Shown here piece by piece: positions 1,402 to 8,377 of a stretch of 8,390 nt of DNA. The DNA is from Anaerolineaceae bacterium (GTDB lineage: Bacteria > Planctomycetota > Phycisphaerae > FEN-1346 > JAACEH01). The notes beneath the pieces were generated by a model. That model was not told the DNA's origin. It worked only from the letters and a program-made list of their open reading frames with translations, and did not search any database. The first letter of the stretch is position 1; the number at the start of each line of letters is the position of its first letter. The stretch is from the NCBI GenBank assembly GCA_011682595.1, contig JAACEH010000143.1, positions 1 through 8,390 on the forward strand, given 5' to 3'. A program made the position numbers and the translations under genes.

Positions 1402-1968
1402 CTACGATAGCAGGTTCGTGGCGCTTTCAATCTCACGCACGACAGCCCGGAGATTGAAGGGCTTCGGCAGAAAGCTCTCAAAGCCGAAGCTCGTGAACTG
1501 CTGGGCGTCGCCTTCGCTGCCGCCGACGGCGATCACTCGCGTGGCGGCCAGGTCCGGGTTGCTCTTCAGCGCTTTGAGGACCGTTCGCACGTCGCAGTCC
1601 GACAAGTTCAACTCGAAGAGGATGACGTGCGGCCGAAAGCCGTCGGCCATCATCCCGGCCTCGAAAGCATTGCTGGCAACCTGGACCGAATAGCCGATGT
1701 CCCGCTCCAGACTGGTGCGGAGCAGGTCGGCCATCTCGTACTCGTCGTCGACAATCAGCACGCGGGTCACGCCGATCTCAAGGCCCTTCAGAGGAATGCC
1801 ATGAGTTCGCATGAATCGCAGAAGCTGGTCGCGTGGAATACGGCGGTCTTTACTGCCAGGAATGCGGTAGCCCTTGAGTTGACCTGAGTCGAACCACTTG
1901 GACACCGTGCGAGGACTCACTCGACAGACGCGAGCCACTTCCCCCGTAGTGTAAACGTCCTTAACCAT
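1402..1968 (-). CDS. HTH (MerR/excisionase-type) plus receiver-domain regulator with a Glu at the phospho-site
   Basis: 188 residues. Residues 5-55 form an excisionase/MerR-like helix-turn-helix (TTGEVARVCRVSPRTVSKW, then a wing rich in Arg/Lys). Residues 68-188 form a CheY-like receiver domain. Acidic pocket residues D74, D75 and E76 and the signalling Lys K169 are present. The position of the phospho-acceptor Asp is E119, 44 residues after D75, the same spacing as CheY D13 to D57, in the context V-I-L-F-E-L-N-L. The usual Thr/Ser 30 residues further on is G149. A Glu there often mimics phosphorylation, so the domain may be locked in one state or be phosphate-independent (inference). The ATG at 1966-1968 follows GGGGAGAGGG closely. 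The gene has its own promoter and terminator and no adjacent histidine kinase. This architecture, HTH before receiver, is common in planctomycetes; the target genes are unknown. Confidence 0.9.
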   Translation of the reverse strand: MVKDVYTTGEVARVCRVSPRTVSKWFDSGQLKGYRIPGSKDRRIPRDQLLRFMRTHGIPLKGLEIGVTRVLIVDDEYEMADLLRTSLERDIGYSVQVASNAFEAGMMADGFRPHVILFELNLSDCDVRTVLKALKSNPDLAATRVIAVGGSEGDAQQFTSFGFESFLPKPFNLRAVVREIESATNLLS

Positions 1969-2483: not shown

Positions 2484-4054
2484 TCACGCGCTCGGCGCCG
2501 GCTTCAGGACGTGCAGCTTGCAGACCTTGCGGAAATGGTGGCCGACGATGGACAGCGTGATGGCCTCCTGCAACAATTCTGGGTGGCGCAACTGCGTCCA
2601 TATCAGGAGCCACCAGTAGTGGAGTCGGCCATTGCTGATGACGCCCAGGTGAAACGCGGAGCGGAGGAAGGCCAGGATGTCCTGATACTGCATGCGTGTT
2701 GTCGTCTTGGGGGCCTGGTATTCCCGCAGGAAGGTCCGGATTCGCCGGTAGTAGTTCTTCGGCGAATAGATGTGATCCAGGATCTTATAGTATCCCTCGC
2801 GCAGCCGCTCGGCGCTCATCCGCGACAGGATGTTTGTCGTCCCGTCGACATTGTCTCCCGAGATCTGGCCGAGCAGCCGACCCTCGCCCTTGAGACGGTC
2901 GTAGAGCCGCGTGCCGGGCATGGCCTGAAGCAAGCCGACCATGGCCGTCACGATGCCGCTGTTCTGGATGAAGTCGATCTGCCGTTGGAAGATCGAAGGC
3001 TCGTCGCTGTCGAAGCCGACAATGAACCCCCCTGCACCTGAAGGCCGGCCCTCTGCAGGCGCTTCACGTCGGCCACCAGGTCGCGGCCCTGGTTCTGCTT
3101 CTTGTTGCACTCGGCCAGGCCCATCTCGTCGGGCGTCTCCAGGCCGATGAAGACCGTGCAGAATCCGGCCTCGACCATCATCCGCATCAGCTCCTCGTCG
3201 TCGGCCAGGTTCATCGAGACCTCGGTGTTGAACGGGATTCCGGGGTGGCTTTTCTGCCACTTGATCAGGGCCGGCAGCAACCCCGTCTTGAGGGCTTTCG
3301 GGTTGCCGATGAAGTTGTCGTCCACGAAGAAGATGCCGCTCCGCCAACCCGTGGCGTAGAGACCGTCCAACTCGGCAATGACCTGCTGCGGGGTCTTGGT
3401 GCGCGGCTTATGGCCGAACAGCGAGGTGACGTTGCAGAAGTCGCAGTTGAACGGGCAACCACGGGAAAACTGGATGCTCATCCAGCCATACCGTTTCAGG
3501 TCCATCAACTCCCACTTGGGAGCCGGCGTCTGGTGGACGTCGGGGAACTCGGGGGTAGTGTAAAGGCGTTTGGCTTTTCCTTGGGCCAGATCGGCCAGAA
3601 ACGGCGGCAGCGTCAACTCGGCTTCGTTCAACACGAAGTGATCGACCTCGTCAAACTGCTCGTACTCGACGGTAAACAGCGGCCCCCCGGCAACCACCTT
3701 CAACCCGGCCGCCTTGCAGCGGCTGATGACCAGCCGCGCGGACTCTCGCTGGATGACCATTGCGCTGACCATGGCGCAGTCGGCCCAGGCCAGATCTTTC
3801 GGGTGGAGCTTGGTGACGTTCAGGTCCACCAGTCGCATGGACCACTCTTGCGGCAACATGGCCGCAACCGTGAGCAGCCCCAGCGGCGGCGACCCGGCGC
3901 GTTTGCGGACGAACTTCAAGGCGTGCTTGAAGCTCCAGAATGTGTCGGGACACTCCGGATAAATCAGAAGGACGTTAATCGGCTTCCCTCCCAGCCACCC
4001 ACTTAAAAGATCAAGCACCGCCGCATCAGGACCATCAACCCGCCATGATACCAC
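2484..4054 (-). pseudogene. B12-binding radical SAM protein (DUF4070 type), frameshifted
   Basis: Counting from the family-like start (Ile codon 3977-3979, then NVLLIYPE), residues 1-150 are a cobalamin-binding-like Rossmann domain (VVAGGPLF at 95-102). The radical SAM domain carries the 4Fe-4S motif C175-P-F-N-C179-D-F-C182. The C-terminal part (GFIVGFDSDEPSIF onward, then a DUF4070-like tail) is in another frame. Both halves belong to one protein of about 500 residues, the usual family length. The break is at a run of six G on the coding strand (3027-3032); seven would restore QVQGGFIVGF. It resembles the hopanoid C-2 methylase group but belongs to a sister type of unknown substrate. I place the start at GTG 4052-4054, 11 bases after a strong AGGAGGTGG (4064-4072), giving a 25-residue extension. 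An AUU start at 3979 behind GGGAGG is the alternative. Sequencing error, decay or slippage could explain the frameshift. Confidence 0.8.
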
Positions 4055-4072: not shown

Positions 4073-4387
4073 AGACCAATCCGTTAAAACCATTTTGGAC
4101 GATAATTTTACAGAAGTCGGTATGAGCCACCCGGTTACGCTCTTTTTTTGTTTTTGCCCAGCCATTAACGCATCAAAATCCAACAATCCCCGTGGTATGG
4201 TCCGCACTTGCCGGGCCATGGCCGAGTGGCACGGCAGGCCGGTCAACAGCCCCGACATTTCGCAGGCCCGCTTCCCGGCCATCTTTTCATCGGGCCCATA
4301 GCCCGAACAGCGCCTGGACCGCACCACGCAAACCGCCTCCTCTTCCACCCGTATTGAGAAAAATCCGCAGCCCGGAAGGAGAACGGC
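4073..4387. other. Divergent intergenic region between the radical SAM gene and the ArsR operon
   Basis: Short open frames exist on both strands (for example 4095-4301 plus), but none has a ribosome site or a recognisable domain. An open minus frame running back to 4348 is an upstream extension of the radical SAM frame with non-protein-like composition. An A/T-rich patch (4095-4150) is a likely place for the minus-strand promoter; TAAAAT at 4110-4105 could be a -10 box, but I see no good -35 box at the right distance. Confidence 0.45.
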
Positions 4388-4416
4388 TTGACTTGGCGGC
4401 TATTCCACGATATAGT
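4388..4416 (+). promoter_or_regulatory. Sigma-70-type promoter of the ArsR-HgcAB-like operon
   Basis: TTGACT (4388-4393), a 17-base spacer and TATAGT (4411-4416) match the vegetative promoter consensus at 10 of 12 positions. The start of transcription would be near 4423, about 28 bases before the ArsR start codon. It is the only good promoter seen ahead of the five-gene operon. Confidence 0.78.
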
Positions 4417-4419
4417 GGA
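4404..4419. promoter_or_regulatory. Probable ArsR operator over the -10 box
   Basis: TCCAC (4404-4408) and GTGGA (4415-4419) form an inverted repeat around GATATA; 14 of 16 positions are symmetric. It covers the whole -10 box. ArsR/SmtB repressors typically bind short dyads overlapping their own promoter and block polymerase until metal binds. The first downstream gene is an ArsR-family repressor, which supports autoregulation (inference). Confidence 0.62.
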
Positions 4420-4439
4420 GTAGTGTTGGGCTGATTCGA

Positions 4440-4444
4440 GGGAG
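4440..4444 (+). promoter_or_regulatory. Ribosome binding site that decides the ArsR start
   Basis: GGGAG (4440-4444) directly abuts the ATG at 4445 but lies 6 bases before the ATG at 4451. The second ATG therefore has the better spacing and is taken as the start. Confidence 0.55.
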
Positions 4445-4450
4445 ATGAGT

Positions 4451-4846
4451 ATGGATCCAGAGTGCGAGGCGACGTGTTGTCCGAAGAAACCAGATCTCAA
4501 AAATCGGCCTCTGCTTACCGGGGTCCAGGCATTACCGCTTGAACAGGTTTTCAAGCTGCTCGCCAACGGCACGCGGCTGCGGATAGTGCATGCCCTTGCG
4601 CGGACCGGCGAACTATGCGTCTCGGAGATTGCCGAAGCCCTGGGCATGAAGCCCACGGCGGTCTCGAACCAGCTTCAGCGGCTGGCGGACCGGGGCATTG
4701 TCGAGCCCCGCCGAAACGGGAACCAGATTCTGTATCGTGTTATCGACCCATGCGTGGTCAAGCTTCTGGACAGCGCGTGGTGTCTCACGGAGGACGCCCG
4801 AATGCGGGCATCAGGACGGGCACCAAGAGAAAGGACCGCAACATGA
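4451..4846 (+). CDS. ArsR/SmtB-family metal-responsive repressor
   Basis: 131 residues from ATG 4451 (133 from ATG 4445). A winged-helix domain covers about residues 25-100: the sensor helix ELCVSEIAEAL, then the recognition helix KPTAVSNQLQRLADRG and a wing (EPRRNGNQILYRV). Cysteines, counted from the 4445 Met, are C7, C11, C12, C58, C103 and C113. C7, C11 and C58 fall at the same numbers as three of the four Cd/Pb ligands of CadC (C7, C11, C58, C60), with C60 replaced by Ser and an extra C12. This suggests a thiolate site for a soft metal or metalloid; which one is unknown. It heads the operon with a dyad over its promoter. Its TGA overlaps the next gene's ATG (ATGA, 4843-4846). Confidence 0.92.
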   Translation: MDPECEATCCPKKPDLKNRPLLTGVQALPLEQVFKLLANGTRLRIVHALARTGELCVSEIAEALGMKPTAVSNQLQRLADRGIVEPRRNGNQILYRVIDPCVVKLLDSAWCLTEDARMRASGRAPRERTAT

Positions 4847-5265
4847 AGGCGGGAATCGTAGCCGTTGTTCTTGCCGCCGTTGTCGTTGCCGCCGGGATCA
4901 CTTACTCGTTCATCCGCCAGGAGGATGGGCCCGTCGACCGGGGGCCTCCGGTGACGGCAGGGCCGGATAGCTCCTCGAAGATCGTCCAGGTCGATGACCT
5001 GGCCAAGAGCCCTGAAGATTTCAAGGGTCGGATCGTGCTCCGGGCAGTAGTCGTGGGCCTGAAGGAATCGGAAGGGGTGTTCGGCGTCATCGACTCCCGC
5101 GAGTTCGAGTCCTGCGGCAGGTTGACCTGCGCGGAGACCATTCTTCCCGTCAGGTTCTCCGGCCGCCTGCCCGGTCTGAAAACCGTGGTCGAGATCACCG
5201 GGCGGGTGGTTCGGGGCGAGAAGGGGCTGATCATCGACGCCGAAGGCGTGGAGGTCGCGCCGTGA
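4843..5265 (+). CDS. Membrane-anchored OB-fold-like protein with a C-x4-C pair
   Basis: 140 residues. Residues 4-24 form one strongly hydrophobic segment after MK, either a signal anchor or an uncleaved signal peptide with no lipobox Cys, so the rest is probably outside the cytoplasmic membrane. After a Pro/Gly/Ser-rich linker, residues 45-140 look like a small five-strand barrel (VDDLAKSPEDFKGRIVLRA, later TGRVVRGEKGLIIDAEGVEV), the pattern of OB-fold proteins such as the tRNA_anti-like or CcmE type. Two Cys (C91, C96, in ESCGRLTCAE) could bind a metal or form a disulfide. AAAGGA lies 7 bases before the ATG. It overlaps arsR upstream and the next gene downstream by 4 bases each. I know no named family with certainty; the role is inferred from context only. 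Confidence 0.8.
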   Translation: MKAGIVAVVLAAVVVAAGITYSFIRQEDGPVDRGPPVTAGPDSSSKIVQVDDLAKSPEDFKGRIVLRAVVVGLKESEGVFGVIDSREFESCGRLTCAETILPVRFSGRLPGLKTVVEITGRVVRGEKGLIIDAEGVEVAP

Positions 5266-5786
5266 AATGGCTGCTGGTATCGGGTGTCTTCCTGGCGGTT
5301 CTGGCCGGGCATTTCCTCTACGTCACAGGCAGCCTTTGGCCGTCAAACAAGGATGGGACATGGGCCTCCTACGAATTCGAGCGGCCCGAAGAGTCCCGTC
5401 TGAGCCGCTACATCGGGCCGGGGCAGTACTGGCTCGGCTTTTCTTACGGTCTGGCCGGAGCCTTCACCGCCATCTGCCTGGTTCGGATGATCCGCATGCG
5501 CCGGGAGTCTCTGGCCGCGTCGGCCGGGGGACTGGCCTTGGGCGGCCTGTTGTGGGCGAGCCTTTGTTTCCTGGCCGGCTGTTGCGGATCGCCGATGCTC
5601 CCGCTCTACATGGGGCTCCTGGGACCGAAGTTTCTTGGCCTCACCAGGCCCCTGACCTTCGCCCTGACGCTCCTCTCGATTGTGATCGGTTACGCCTGGA
5701 TGCTCAAGCGGTCCCGAAAGGTGGTAGCGAACAATGTCAACACTAGTCTACATGAAAATGCTGGAGCAGACCCCGGCCAAGTATGA
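5262..5786 (+). CDS. Small integral membrane protein with a vicinal Cys pair
   Basis: 174 residues starting at GTG 5262, overlapping the previous stop (GTGA). Four hydrophobic segments are visible at about 3-23, 56-76, 85-106 and 129-148. The loop between the first two (about 24-55) is polar. C107 and C108 sit at the end of the third segment in FLAGCCGSPMLPLYMGLLG, followed by two Pro. Vicinal Cys near a membrane segment recall mercuric transporters of the MerT type, but there is no overall match, so transport or thiol binding of a soft metal is only a suggestion. The last 30 residues are polar and overlap the next gene by 53 bases, so their sequence is constrained by two frames. No named family recognised. 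Confidence 0.82.
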   Translation: MKWLLVSGVFLAVLAGHFLYVTGSLWPSNKDGTWASYEFERPEESRLSRYIGPGQYWLGFSYGLAGAFTAICLVRMIRMRRESLAASAGGLALGGLLWASLCFLAGCCGSPMLPLYMGLLGPKFLGLTRPLTFALTLLSIVIGYAWMLKRSRKVVANNVNTSLHENAGADPGQV

Positions 5787-6372
5787 CCGGGGCATGCGAA
5801 TCCTGACCCTCGGCCGGATCGGCCGAATCAAGCGGGAAATCGCCTCGCTCCGTGTGCAGCCCGGCCAGGAGGTCCTGGAAATCGGCTGCGGGACGGGGAG
5901 GCTGGCCGCCCTGATGAGCGAGCGCGGCGCCCGCGTGGTGGGCATTGACGTCTCCGAGGGCATGCTGGCCGTGGCCCGCCAGAACGCGCCGAAAGCCGAG
6001 TTCATCCACATGACGGCGACCGAGATCGACCGCCTCGGGCCGCAGCGCTTCGACCGCGTCGTGGCCACCCTCTCCTTCAGTGAACTTTCAGAAGACGAAC
6101 TCGACCACGTGTTACGAGCTGTCATCGAGGCCCTTAAGCCGGGCGGCAGGCTGGTCCTGGCCGACGAGGTGCCGCCCGGGCGGTGGTGGCAGCGGATTAT
6201 TTCCTCTCTGGTCCGCTGGCCACTGGTGGCGCTGACCTTCCTGCTGACGCAGAACACGACACACGCACTCAAGGGAATTGAGAGCCGGCTTGAGCGAGCG
6301 GGTTTTCGGCTATCATCCCGCAAGGAGTACCTGCTCGGGACACTGGCCATCATCGTGGCGGAGAAAGCATGA
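5734..6372 (+). CDS. cpaM: SAM-dependent methyltransferase, corrinoid protein-associated (CpaM-like)
   Basis: 212 residues, class I Rossmann methyltransferase. The SAM site is VLEIGCGTGRLA (47-58) with acidic D72 in VVGIDVS. Later blocks are FDRVVATLSFSELSEDEL and LKPGGRLVLADEVPP. The N-terminal M-K-M-L-E-x(4)-K-Y-D-R-G-x-R-x-L-T-L-G block and the hydrophobic C-terminal stretch (about 152-180, with LTFLLTQNTT) match what I recall of CpaM proteins, which are encoded beside HgcAB-like corrinoid fusions. A plausible role is to move a methyl group from SAM to or from the corrinoid protein next door; this is inferred. The ATG at 5734 follows AAAGGTGG at about 9 bases; ATGs at 5752 and 5758 would shorten the 53-base overlap. 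It shares ATGA with the next gene (6369-6372). Confidence 0.86.
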   Translation: MSTLVYMKMLEQTPAKYDRGMRILTLGRIGRIKREIASLRVQPGQEVLEIGCGTGRLAALMSERGARVVGIDVSEGMLAVARQNAPKAEFIHMTATEIDRLGPQRFDRVVATLSFSELSEDELDHVLRAVIEALKPGGRLVLADEVPPGRWWQRIISSLVRWPLVALTFLLTQNTTHALKGIESRLERAGFRLSSRKEYLLGTLAIIVAEKA

Positions 6373-7490
6373 TGTGGAATCTCATCAAGGACCTGTGGCT
6401 GCTCTTCGGGCGTCTTTTCCCCTTTCCCACCAGGCCGGGGCTCCGCCGGGTGGGCAATCCCGGCCGCTCCTCGCCGGTCCTGGTCACCTGCAACTTCGAG
6501 CTTACCGTACGCAAGGTCATCGAGGCATTGCGCCGCGACGGCCTCGATGCCTGGCTGCTCGTGGCCCCCACCAGGGGCATCAACGTGTGGTGCGCAGCCG
6601 GTGGCGGACATTTCACCACCGACACCGTCGTCTCTATCCTCAGAACAAGCGGCATCGAGAACATGGTCGACCACCGGAACCTCATTCTCCCGCAATTGTC
6701 GGCGGTCGGAATAAACGTCGGGGCCCTGAAGGAGCGCACGGAATGGCAGCCGCGCTTCGGCCCGGTGGACATCAAGCACCTGGCTGCCTATCTGAGGGCC
6801 GGCAAGTCACAGGCTCCGCGGGAACACCGCCGCGTAAGGTTCGATCTTAAAGACCGCTTTGTCATGGGGACCAACCTCGGCTTTAACTCGCTCCTGTTTC
6901 TCGTCCTGCCCCTGCTTGTCGCTTCGGTCTGGCTGGGCGGCCTGTGGTGGAAGTCCATTGCCCTCGTGTTCGTTCTTTCCGTGCTCAACAGCGTGCTGGC
7001 ATTCCGGCTGCCCGGCAGACCCGGCCTGCAGAAAGGCCTCTGGCTCGGTCTTCTCGCCTCGGCGATCTTCGTGGCCATCTCGCAGACGGTCTGGACGATG
7101 GGGCCCTGGGCCGTTGTCGGCTGGGCGGGATGGATCGTCCTGCTGTCGGTCTACCTTGGCTACGAGATGCCCAGCTGGTCGCCCTTGTGGCGATCGAACG
7201 TCAAGGAACTCGTCCTGGGCCGTAAGACCACGCAGCTTGAGATCATTCCCGAGCGCTGCATCGGTTGCGGCCGGTGCGACATCGTTTGCCCGGCCAACGT
7301 ATTCGCCCTCGACGATGCAGCCGGCAAGCCTGAAGTGGTGAACCCGGATGCCTGCCAGGCCTGCGGGGCCTGCATCGAGAACTGCCCGGCGGAGGCAATC
7401 ACGAGTAACTTCCGTGCAGGCATGTGCTCGTGCCCGACCTGTGCCATTATCAAGGGCGCCAAATCCATCCGGAACCGTTCATCGGCTTGA
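6369..7490 (+). CDS. HgcAB-like fusion: corrinoid domain, membrane helices and 2[4Fe-4S] ferredoxin
   Basis: 373 residues. Residues 30-145 are an HgcA-like corrinoid-binding domain with the cap-helix motif N72-V-W-C75-A-A-G-G79; in HgcA this Cys binds cobalt from below and the motif ends in Lys rather than Gly. VDHRNLILPQL (100-110) and HRRVRFDLKDR (153-163) also follow HgcA. Four membrane segments lie at about 170-190, 195-212, 222-241 and 245-265; HgcA usually has five. Residues 290-345 are an HgcB-like ferredoxin: C297/C300/C303/C307 and C329/C332/C335/C339. The tail has C353-S-C355-P-T-C358, recalling the thiols at the end of HgcB. HgcA and HgcB are normally separate proteins that methylate Hg(II) using a Co-methyl corrinoid reduced by the ferredoxin. 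The fused type is a paralogue, and its substrate is not known to me. GGAG lies 5 bases before ATG 6369. It is the last gene of the operon. Confidence 0.9.
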   Translation: MMWNLIKDLWLLFGRLFPFPTRPGLRRVGNPGRSSPVLVTCNFELTVRKVIEALRRDGLDAWLLVAPTRGINVWCAAGGGHFTTDTVVSILRTSGIENMVDHRNLILPQLSAVGINVGALKERTEWQPRFGPVDIKHLAAYLRAGKSQAPREHRRVRFDLKDRFVMGTNLGFNSLLFLVLPLLVASVWLGGLWWKSIALVFVLSVLNSVLAFRLPGRPGLQKGLWLGLLASAIFVAISQTVWTMGPWAVVGWAGWIVLLSVYLGYEMPSWSPLWRSNVKELVLGRKTTQLEIIPERCIGCGRCDIVCPANVFALDDAAGKPEVVNPDACQACGACIENCPAEAITSNFRAGMCSCPTCAIIKGAKSIRNRSSA

Positions 7491-7537
7491 TCCGAGAGGT
7501 GAATATATGAAGTATGGCACGAACGGCTTTTCGGGGC

Positions 7538-8377
7538 TCAGCTTTTCAGCAGCCAGTCGACGACCTCGGCCAGCCCGTGGTGGTCGTTGGAGGGGGCGAG
7601 GCGGTCGGCCGCCTGGCGGACGCACTCGGCGGCGTTGGCCATGGCCATGCCCAGGGCGGCCTGGCGGATCATCTCCAGGTCGTTGACGTCGTCGCCGATG
7701 GCGGCGATCTGGTCGGCTGGGATCTTCCACCCGTCGGCCAGCCGCAGGGCGGCCGCCCACTTGTTCACCCCGGGAGCGAAAGCCTCGAACAACTTCAGCC
7801 CCAGGTTCGGGGCCTGGATGATCAGCGTGCGGACTTGGAAATCGAGCTGCGAGTCGACCGCCCGGCGAACTTCTTGCAGGACCGCGTCGGGAGCGACGGT
7901 GGCGATCTCCATACAGCCTCGGAAGGCCTCGGCGGCGCCGTCGAGGTCGGTCGTGTGGTAACGGTCGGCGTAGAGGTCCAGGAACTGTTGCATGTCGGGC
8001 GAGTGATGCGGCCCGGGCACCAGGACGAAATCCAGGTTGCGCGTGAAACCGTCCACGCAGACGATGGCCGACTTGCCCTGGGCCAGGATGGTTTCGGTCA
8101 CGCGGCGGGCGACGTCGGAAGCGAAAACGGTCGAGTCGATTGTGCGATGATCGCTCGGGTGCTTGACCAGGCCGCCGTTCAGGCAAATAACGGGCCGGTC
8201 GAGTCCGATCGCACGGACTACGGGCAGGGCTGTGCGGTAACTTCGTCCGGTGGCCAGGACGACGCGGCAGCCGGCCTCGTCCAGCCGCTTCAGGGCCGCG
8301 ACCGTGGCCGGCGTCACTTCGTTCTGCGAGTTCAGCACCGTCCCGTCCAGGTCGGCGACCAGCATGCGGTAGGTCAT
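7538..8377 (-). CDS. Cof-type HAD-IIB hydrolase (sugar-phosphate/nucleotide phosphatase-like)
   Basis: 279 residues, complete. HAD motifs are in order: D9-L-D11-G-T with nucleophile and acid/base Asp; LATGRS (41-46); K206 in GVNKW; and GDDVND (228-233) for Mg2+ binding. The C2B cap lies between residues 80 and 190. The length and the ending (APSNDHHGLAEVVDWLL) fit the Cof subfamily, which dephosphorylates small phosphorylated metabolites in the cytoplasm; the actual substrate cannot be read from sequence. ATG 8375-8377 follows GGGAG (8384-8388) at 6 bases; a second Met at residue 5 lacks such a site. It runs convergently to the HgcAB-like operon, with 47 bases between the two stops. No strong shared terminator is visible in that gap. 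Its promoter would lie outside the window. Confidence 0.93.
   Translation of the reverse strand: MTYRMLVADLDGTVLNSQNEVTPATVAALKRLDEAGCRVVLATGRSYRTALPVVRAIGLDRPVICLNGGLVKHPSDHRTIDSTVFASDVARRVTETILAQGKSAIVCVDGFTRNLDFVLVPGPHHSPDMQQFLDLYADRYHTTDLDGAAEAFRGCMEIATVAPDAVLQEVRRAVDSQLDFQVRTLIIQAPNLGLKLFEAFAPGVNKWAAALRLADGWKIPADQIAAIGDDVNDLEMIRQAALGMAMANAAECVRQAADRLAPSNDHHGLAEVVDWLLKS

Follow-up and report, generated by a model that had tools for sequence, protein, structure and literature searches.

Which reaction is served by an operon that combines a metal sensor, two small cysteine-bearing proteins, a methyltransferase and a corrinoid protein? The question is raised by the 8,390-nucleotide contig JAACEH010000143.1 of an Anaerolineaceae bacterium (assembly GCA_011682595.1), the whole of which is called the window here. 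Its plus strand contains five open reading frames (ORFs), which overlap consecutively by 4, 4, 53 and 4 bases and encode an ArsR-type repressor, a protein with a predicted OB-fold (OB), a membrane protein with a cysteine pair (CC), the corrinoid protein-associated S-adenosylmethionine (SAM) methyltransferase CpaM and an HgcAB-like fusion protein. An original prediction made from the sequence had described these genes behind one promoter with a dyad over the -10 box, and ORFs, overlaps, promoter and dyad were all found as claimed (Table 1). The promoter was the single match in a scan of positions 4100-7600, while shuffled sequence yielded 0.4 +/- 0.6 matches. We conclude that the five genes are a real, conserved set with its own operator, moving as a unit. 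With about as much confidence as doubt, we read this set as a putative inducible operon for the corrinoid-dependent methylation or detoxification of metal(loid)s, arsenic (As) and antimony (Sb) being the favored candidates.

Genome contigs were scanned with a pattern, and the 38 relatives of the fusion thus retrieved fell into a close group (L001-L019, 59-72% identity to the window fusion) and a distant group (L020-L038, 30-55% identity over the best segment, with 14 of the 19 at 33-40%). The five genes occurred in identical order at 12 of the 19 close loci. Three others (L003, L008, L016) contained ArsR, CpaM and the fusion, one (L012) ArsR and the fusion, and the contigs of L010, L013 and L018 start at CpaM, their upstream side lying outside the view; for L018, ArsR, part of a CC-like protein and the beginning of CpaM were found on another contig of its genome. 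At all but one of the 19 close loci CpaM stood beside the fusion, and wherever the upstream side is visible (16 loci) ArsR was present. Within the 13 five-gene operons, the window included, the four junctions overlapped in 13, 13, 9 and 11 cases, respectively, and the overlap was exactly 4 bases at the first junction of all 13 and at the second junction of 12 operons. L001 possesses an additional gene between CpaM and the fusion. Protein distances were correlated in all 10 pairs (r 0.62-0.87), and none of 2000 permutations gave as high a value in any pair. The lack of a conserved neighborhood in other genomes had been set beforehand as the refuting test of the original prediction; the order kept at the close loci and the correlated distances revealed such a neighborhood. 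By their bin labels, the 12 metagenome-assembled genomes with the five genes belong to Bacteroidetes, Planctomycetes, Nitrospiraceae and Deltaproteobacteria, one being labeled just 'bacterium', and their fusions share 60-71% identity with the window fusion. The varied labels together with this degree of identity suggest that the operon has been transferred between lineages.

Table 1. Features of the five-gene operon in the window
Feature	Position	Strand	Remarks
Sigma-70-like promoter, TTGACT-17-TATAGT	4388..4416	+	10/12 consensus bases
Operator dyad, CTATTCCAC-GATATA-GTGGAGTAG	4400..4423		Imperfect 9-6-9, 8/9 pairs, spans the -10 box
AntR-like ArsR/SmtB repressor, 133 aa	4445..4846	+	NF033788 87.7 vs cut-off 55; PDB 6uvu 131 bits
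OB protein, 140 aa	4843..5265	+	Predicted N-terminal helix and five-stranded OB-fold
CC membrane protein, 174 aa, GTG start	5262..5786	+	C-x4-CCGSP-x-L motif
CpaM, corrinoid protein-associated SAM methyltransferase, 212 aa	5734..6372	+	NF043040 276.2 vs cut-off 180
HgcAB-like fusion, 373 aa: corrinoid domain, membrane domain, dicluster ferredoxin	6369..7490	+	CdhD, Fer4; NF043039 365.2 vs cut-off 285
Cap-helix-like motif N-V-W-C of the fusion, residues 72-75	6582..6593	+	N72, W74 and C75 invariant in 37/37 rows
Two CxxCxxCxxxCP motifs of the fusion, residues 297-308 and 329-340	7257..7388	+	Eight cluster Cys invariant in 37/37 rows
C-x-C-P-x-C of the fusion	7425..7442	+	Cys353, 355 and 358 invariant in 37/37 rows

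The repressor had been predicted to be an ArsR of the metal(loid) type, which its match over the NF033788 cut-off bore out and which could be specified further. It aligned over residues 2-124 with PDB entry 6uvu, which we take to be AntR, a regulator that reportedly responds to Sb(III) and methylarsenite via Cys103 and Cys113. Cys103 (4751-4753) and Cys113 (4781-4783) of the window protein align with those of 6uvu and of an antR-annotated plasmid protein, the latter two differing by one residue as judged by eye, and the cysteine pair was present in all 18 operon regulators. When ArsR was searched against plasmids (34 plasmid records), antR gave the best match by bits (132 bits, 51.6% identity over 93%); other plasmid ArsR matches reached up to 62.8% identity over shorter stretches, the neighbors of most of them lying outside the comparison.

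An operator was scored by the 20-base stretch not more than 200 bases from ArsR that agreed best with ATTMCAYNNTATNNTGKAAT, the maximum being 16. The core at 4402-4421 in the window scored 15, and 17 of 18 operon promoters reached at least 13. In Markov resamples (n=3600) of the operon upstream stretches, scores of 12, 13 and 14 were attained in 9%, 1.7% and 0.17%, respectively. L008 has no operator within 200 bases of ArsR and a palindrome about 430 bases upstream. The pattern was derived from the operon loci themselves, loci outside them being the fairer test. A score of 16 was found before the plasmid antR (L123), two cadD-linked arsR genes (L124, L125) and the second ArsR of L009, and a score of 15 before the AntR-like gene of G004 (L098) and the MtrA-type operon of G080 (L101) described below. 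In a regulon search allowing two mismatches, the reversed control pattern also matched in 10 of 19 genomes (in G005, 12 control matches versus 16). For this reason, only palindromic two-strand sites were read.

By the full-length match to 6uvu, both cysteines and the operator, the regulator of the operon is AntR-like in sequence. The operator itself is not AntR-specific, as it also precedes the two cadD-linked arsR genes. A further difference concerns the locus: on the plasmid, antR precedes a short gene and a P-type ATPase, whereas no P-type ATPase was found among nine window proteins scanned, one being present at the relative L004. Since antR and the cadD-linked regulators share these traits, the sensor is probably of a thiophilic metal(loid) type; the context favors As or Sb but leaves the metal unsettled. 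Because of the cadD-linked proteins, antimony was withdrawn as the established inducer and replaced by likely As/Sb.

The two small proteins had been regarded as foreign to classic hgcAB loci, and neither OB nor CC had a match in the one classic hgcAB stretch compared (L062). OB belonged to no Pfam family at E <= 0.1 and gave one weak NCBIfam match (E 0.072) far below the cut-off; CC of the window gave no Pfam family at E <= 0.1 and no NCBIfam match. The AlphaFold model of OB (mean predicted local distance difference test, pLDDT, 77.6; block means > 85 from residue 51) predicts an OB-fold behind a low-confidence N-terminal helix, and its best PDB matches were OB-fold proteins (archaeal RPA, E 4.4e-5; E. 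coli YgiW, E 1.4e-3). Of 29 aligned rows, at least 90% retain Cys91 (5113-5115) and Cys96 (5128-5130) of OB. For CC, the model (mean 76.6) predicts several helices and disclosed no PDB fold match at E <= 0.001. Its motif (5565-5600) was invariant in all 46 aligned rows and recalls the CC-x-x-P motif of Mer transporters. Like MerT and MerC, CC is a small membrane protein with a cysteine pair followed by proline, but it lacks a Pfam match above threshold. The MerT family matched 1 of 46 CC proteins (E 0.037), and the assignment of CC as a Mer transporter was rejected. On plasmid pPRO1 of Pelobacter propionicus, a short CC frame that is not listed as a gene (L126 9016-9363) immediately precedes a heavy-metal P-type ATPase; the region also holds a Tn3 family transposase.

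OB and CC were also encountered beside a second corrinoid protein. CC was searched by profile, the seeds being counted in. Of 392 genomes in the phylum of G011, 4 had a match, two of them a strong one; the corresponding figures were 2 of 68 with one strong match for G004, 3 of 247 with two strong matches for G478, and 13 of 297 for G017, where nine matches were strong, two partial and two weak. A class search for G080 gave 1 of 9, G080 alone. Fifteen non-seed stretches (L101, L138-L140, L156-L166) were read, six weak matches being omitted. An OB match adjoins CC in 11 of them (at L161 as a short frame, at L159 within a longer frame); CC runs off the contig at L140 and L160, and L165 and L166 contain CC pieces only. 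Eight stretches (L101, L138, L139, L140, L156, L157, L160, L161) harbored an MtrA-like corrinoid protein, six of these together with OB, and an AntR-like ArsR with both cysteines was present in five of the 15 (L101, L138, L139, L156, L157). Pfam assigns the L101 protein to MtrA and PterinBD-DUF4346, and three further MtrA-like proteins match NCBIfam MtrA models below cut-offs. Among 13 genomes searched, PterinBD-DUF4346 occurred in G080 only, and in phages the MtrA-like protein had no match. MtrA with PterinBD-DUF4346 resembles the window fusion as a corrinoid methyl carrier, lying beside CC in the eight loci, but belongs to another Pfam family and has a Cys-rich N-terminus and a pterin domain in place of the CpaM partner. 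At L158, OB and CC lie beside MduS, a methyltransferase selenoprotein family (over cut-off), and at L162-L164 no corrinoid gene was found beside them.

Thus, OB and CC form a pair that is found with two kinds of corrinoid protein. Tentatively, the loci may represent a new class of corrinoid-dependent As/Sb methylation system, in which an AntR-type switch and an OB+CC relay are combined with two swappable engines. These might be the SAM-fed CpaM/HgcAB-like fusion on the one hand and the MtrA-like corrinoid protein with its pterin domain on the other, an assignment we likewise offer as a possibility. An MtrA-like protein annotated as DUF4346 and bearing a Cys-rich insert was also seen on a small plasmid of Planococcus kocurii (L127 464-1840, L129 1991-4524), which carries in addition ArsR and, by eye, a P-type ATPase-like frame.

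As had been proposed, the methyltransferase is a CpaM family member and the fusion combines corrinoid and ferredoxin domains, both proteins passing the cut-offs of their curated families. These families, however, name two proteins and not the operon: at the 19 distant fusion loci CpaM was found 16 times, and neither OB or CC nor an AntR-like ArsR was detected (L027 and L034 begin inside the fusion), L023 having an ArsR of another type. There, the distant CpaM and fusion genes (L023 438-3577) lie 3' of a thioredoxin-like frame (by eye), the ArsR and a MerB/SaoL-like gene below cut-off. At L028, L029, L031 and L036, a TetR-type regulator, identified by eye, is located directly 5' of the distant pair. 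CpaM resembles ArsM in SAM-dependent methylation, and ArsM-type frames lie near some copies, but it scored 40.9 bits with the ArsM model NF008823 (cut-off 263).

The fusion was aligned in 37 rows, the window copy included, and the invariant residues are listed in Table 1. By comparison with HgcA Cys93, Cys75 may act as the cap-helix cysteine. Cys353 is placed like HgcB Cys73, 14 residues past the last cluster cysteine versus about 12 for Cys73, and the available text of PMC7305189 and PMC11588087 describes HgcA Cys93 and HgcB Cys73, Cys94 and Cys95 as important for mercury (Hg) methylation. The window fusion has no cysteine after Cys358; 19 of 37 rows carry one and nine a CC pair. With the HgcA model NF040863 it scored 167.2 bits (cut-off 275) and with the HgcB model NF040864 55.8 bits (cut-off 99). 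It shares with HgcAB the corrinoid domain with its cap-helix Cys, the membrane domain, the dicluster ferredoxin and the Cys73-like residue, and differs in being fused, in its dedicated CpaM, OB and CC, and in that no Hg methylation is known for it. By sequence it thus appears near HgcAB, yet by the cut-offs it is a member of neither HgcA nor HgcB. Classic HgcA over cut-off occurred in 1 of 19 close-group genomes (G003), and no match to the fusion was found on plasmids. With NF043039, 385 of the 392 genomes of the phylum of G011 matched at E <= 0.001, but so did 13 of 14 controls, and the seed alone passed the cut-off. In three genomes (G010, G001 and G006; L059, L060 and L061), a further HgcAB-like fusion of the distant kind adjoins a CpaM-like gene or part of one.

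Neighboring metal(loid) genes were surveyed partly by eye, profile libraries being run on chosen neighbors and L009-L011 being viewed in part. At L007, ArsG, ArsF and a heavy-metal P-type ATPase were over curated cut-offs, as were ArsP_1 and DGC. The next gene at L004, in a frame 76 bases past the fusion, is a heavy-metal P-type ATPase over cut-off. A CusB/HlyD-type protein at L005 and DsbD_TM at L013 and L016 likewise exceeded their cut-offs, and resistance-nodulation-division (RND)-type pumps were seen at L005, L007 and L009 (by eye, at L005 partly by Pfam). At L017, one gene of the MerR family and one resembling MerC matched below cut-off, and MerB over cut-off was found in none of 25 genomes. 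ArsM-type frames below cut-offs are located near CC at L007 (11402-12010, minus strand), L156 (2472-3080, minus strand) and L165 (4402-5010, plus strand). Since these frames continue through an in-frame TGA, they probably encode ArsM selenoproteins.

From these components we infer the following course; its chemical steps, like the metal and the transport direction, are all conditional. With no metal present, the AntR-like ArsR would occupy the dyad over the -10 box and silence the five genes. Binding of a thiophilic ion to Cys103 and Cys113, with As(III), methylarsenite or Sb(III) as the likeliest candidates, would free the promoter. CpaM would methylate the fusion's corrinoid with SAM as donor, cap-helix Cys75 lying below the cobalt, and the two [4Fe-4S] clusters of the fusion would hold the cobalt reduced. 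The cysteines of OB and CC may collect the ion at the membrane and hand it over to the CxCPxC tail for methylation, whereupon the methylated product could exit by diffusion or through neighboring pumps. According to the available text of PMC11588087, HgcAB takes its methyl group from SAM in vitro, in agreement with a SAM methyltransferase beside the fusion; for the active HgcAB described in that text, however, no separate methyltransferase is named. The coupled gene set with a metal(loid)-type sensor and corrinoid methyl-transfer parts has stood from the original prediction, while the substrate was refined, As or Sb being likelier than Hg.

Several findings weigh against a methylation operon for As or Sb. 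OB and CC were missing from 4 of the 16 close loci with a visible upstream side, and because of these loci the pair is not obligatory. Cys91 and Cys96 of OB fall short of strict invariance, and no metal gene was seen by eye at L001, L002 and L006. In the distant clade, CpaM and the fusion are accompanied by TetR in four loci and by the other type of ArsR in one. Four of the five MtrA-type loci had operator scores of only 12-13/16, compared with 15/16 in L101. Furthermore, the two cadD-linked ArsR proteins share both AntR-type cysteines and the operator and are closer to the window protein by identity (55.6% for L124, 53.3% for L125; 128 bits) than antR with 51.6%. Because of these shared traits, cadmium (Cd) or lead (Pb) is possible.

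The alternative that survives best, although we consider it unlikely, is an Hg methylation system, in which the fusion would make methylmercury (MeHg) like HgcAB and the additional membrane proteins would handle Hg. It agrees with the conservation of the cap-helix Cys, the cluster motifs and the Cys73-like residue in the fusion and with the matches of the HgcA and HgcB models, though below their cut-offs. The MerR-family and MerC-like genes of L017 and the MerB-like gene of the distant L023, all below cut-off, point in the same direction. The regulator, however, is AntR-like, and MerT matched a single CC protein. The lack of MerB is a weak argument, since methylators need no MerB. As far as the available text of PMC5893877 and PMC7319479 goes, the cultured carriers of fused HgcAB, Methanococcoides methylutens and Pyrococcus furiosus, made no MeHg, the kinship of their fusions to the window fusion lying outside the comparison. 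By the carrier, MerT and MerB results, Hg was given up as the sole reading and kept as a rival only.

A system for Cd, Pb or zinc (Zn), with the corrinoid enzyme as an auxiliary, is improbable as well. Cysteines and operator are common to the two cadD-linked ArsR genes, heavy-metal P-type ATPases adjoin one operon (L004) and one CC gene (the Pelobacter plasmid), and the Planococcus plasmid combines its P-type ATPase-like frame with the MtrA-like gene. To our knowledge, though, Cd or Zn export needs no methyl-transfer enzyme, and both the retention of CpaM beside the fusion in 18 of 19 close loci and the ArsM-type frames near L007, L156 and L165 argue against this substrate. We also doubt that the operon works in the reverse direction, stripping methyl groups from methylated metalloids with the corrinoid as acceptor. 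The presence near L007 of ArsG, ArsF and ArsP_1, whose family names point to organoarsenicals, and of an ArsM-type frame would suit such a demethylation, as would the MerB-like gene by L023 and the response to Sb(III) and methylarsenite that AntR is said to show. CpaM, on the other hand, is a SAM methyltransferase by family, and the SAM-dependent methylation of HgcA is termed irreversible in the available text of PMC11588087, which favors methyl addition.

Poorly compatible with the data is a non-metal substrate methylated by the fusion and CpaM, with ArsR, OB and CC merely sensing envelope stress: the distant pairs with TetR, most of them without a metal gene by eye, would be explained, but neither the AntR-type cysteines in 18 of 18 close-clade regulators nor the occurrence of OB and CC with two kinds of corrinoid protein. 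A chance neighborhood of genes forming no unit draws no support beyond the four loci without OB and CC and can practically be dismissed, as gene order, overlaps, operator and protein distances are all conserved.

An ArsR gene upstream of hgcAB, co-transcription and nearby ars genes have been published for the classic system, which is thereby also linked to arsenic, as stated in the available text of PMC7438021 and PMC10349881. The latter cites experiments with ND132 on the control of classic hgcAB by ArsR and its arsenic response, and the former uses fused HgcAB as a tree root. The part of PMC7824343 available contains just an arsRDABC operon and a remark on the absence of hgcAB. A description of the five-gene set or of an OB+CC/corrinoid system was not found, most subscription journals lying outside the coverage and OB and CC being nameless. 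Fusion and CpaM are already named as NCBIfam families; OB and CC are uncharacterised.

The genes flanking the operon in the window have no obvious link to it. They comprise a response regulator with an HTH_17 domain (1402-1968, minus strand) and a haloacid dehalogenase (HAD)-family hydrolase (7538-8377, minus strand). Between 2484 and 4348 on the minus strand, a radical SAM/B12-binding protein is apparently split over two overlapping frames near 2950-3350, a pattern as from a frameshift or sequencing error. At the extreme window edge (3-1241), a sulfatase frame of 404 aa shows a family match only from about residue 38.

The operon may be a way of methylating toxic metal(loid)s that has so far gone unrecognised, and its regulator, its operator and the two uncharacterised protein families offer direct tests. 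HgcAB-like fusions could pass for mercury methylators by mistake, and if As or Sb is methylated by such operons, surveys of Hg methylators must separate them. If the reading is true, a B12 route for methylating metalloids would exist alongside ArsM, fused HgcAB would obtain a function, and antimony biomethylation would have a candidate enzyme.

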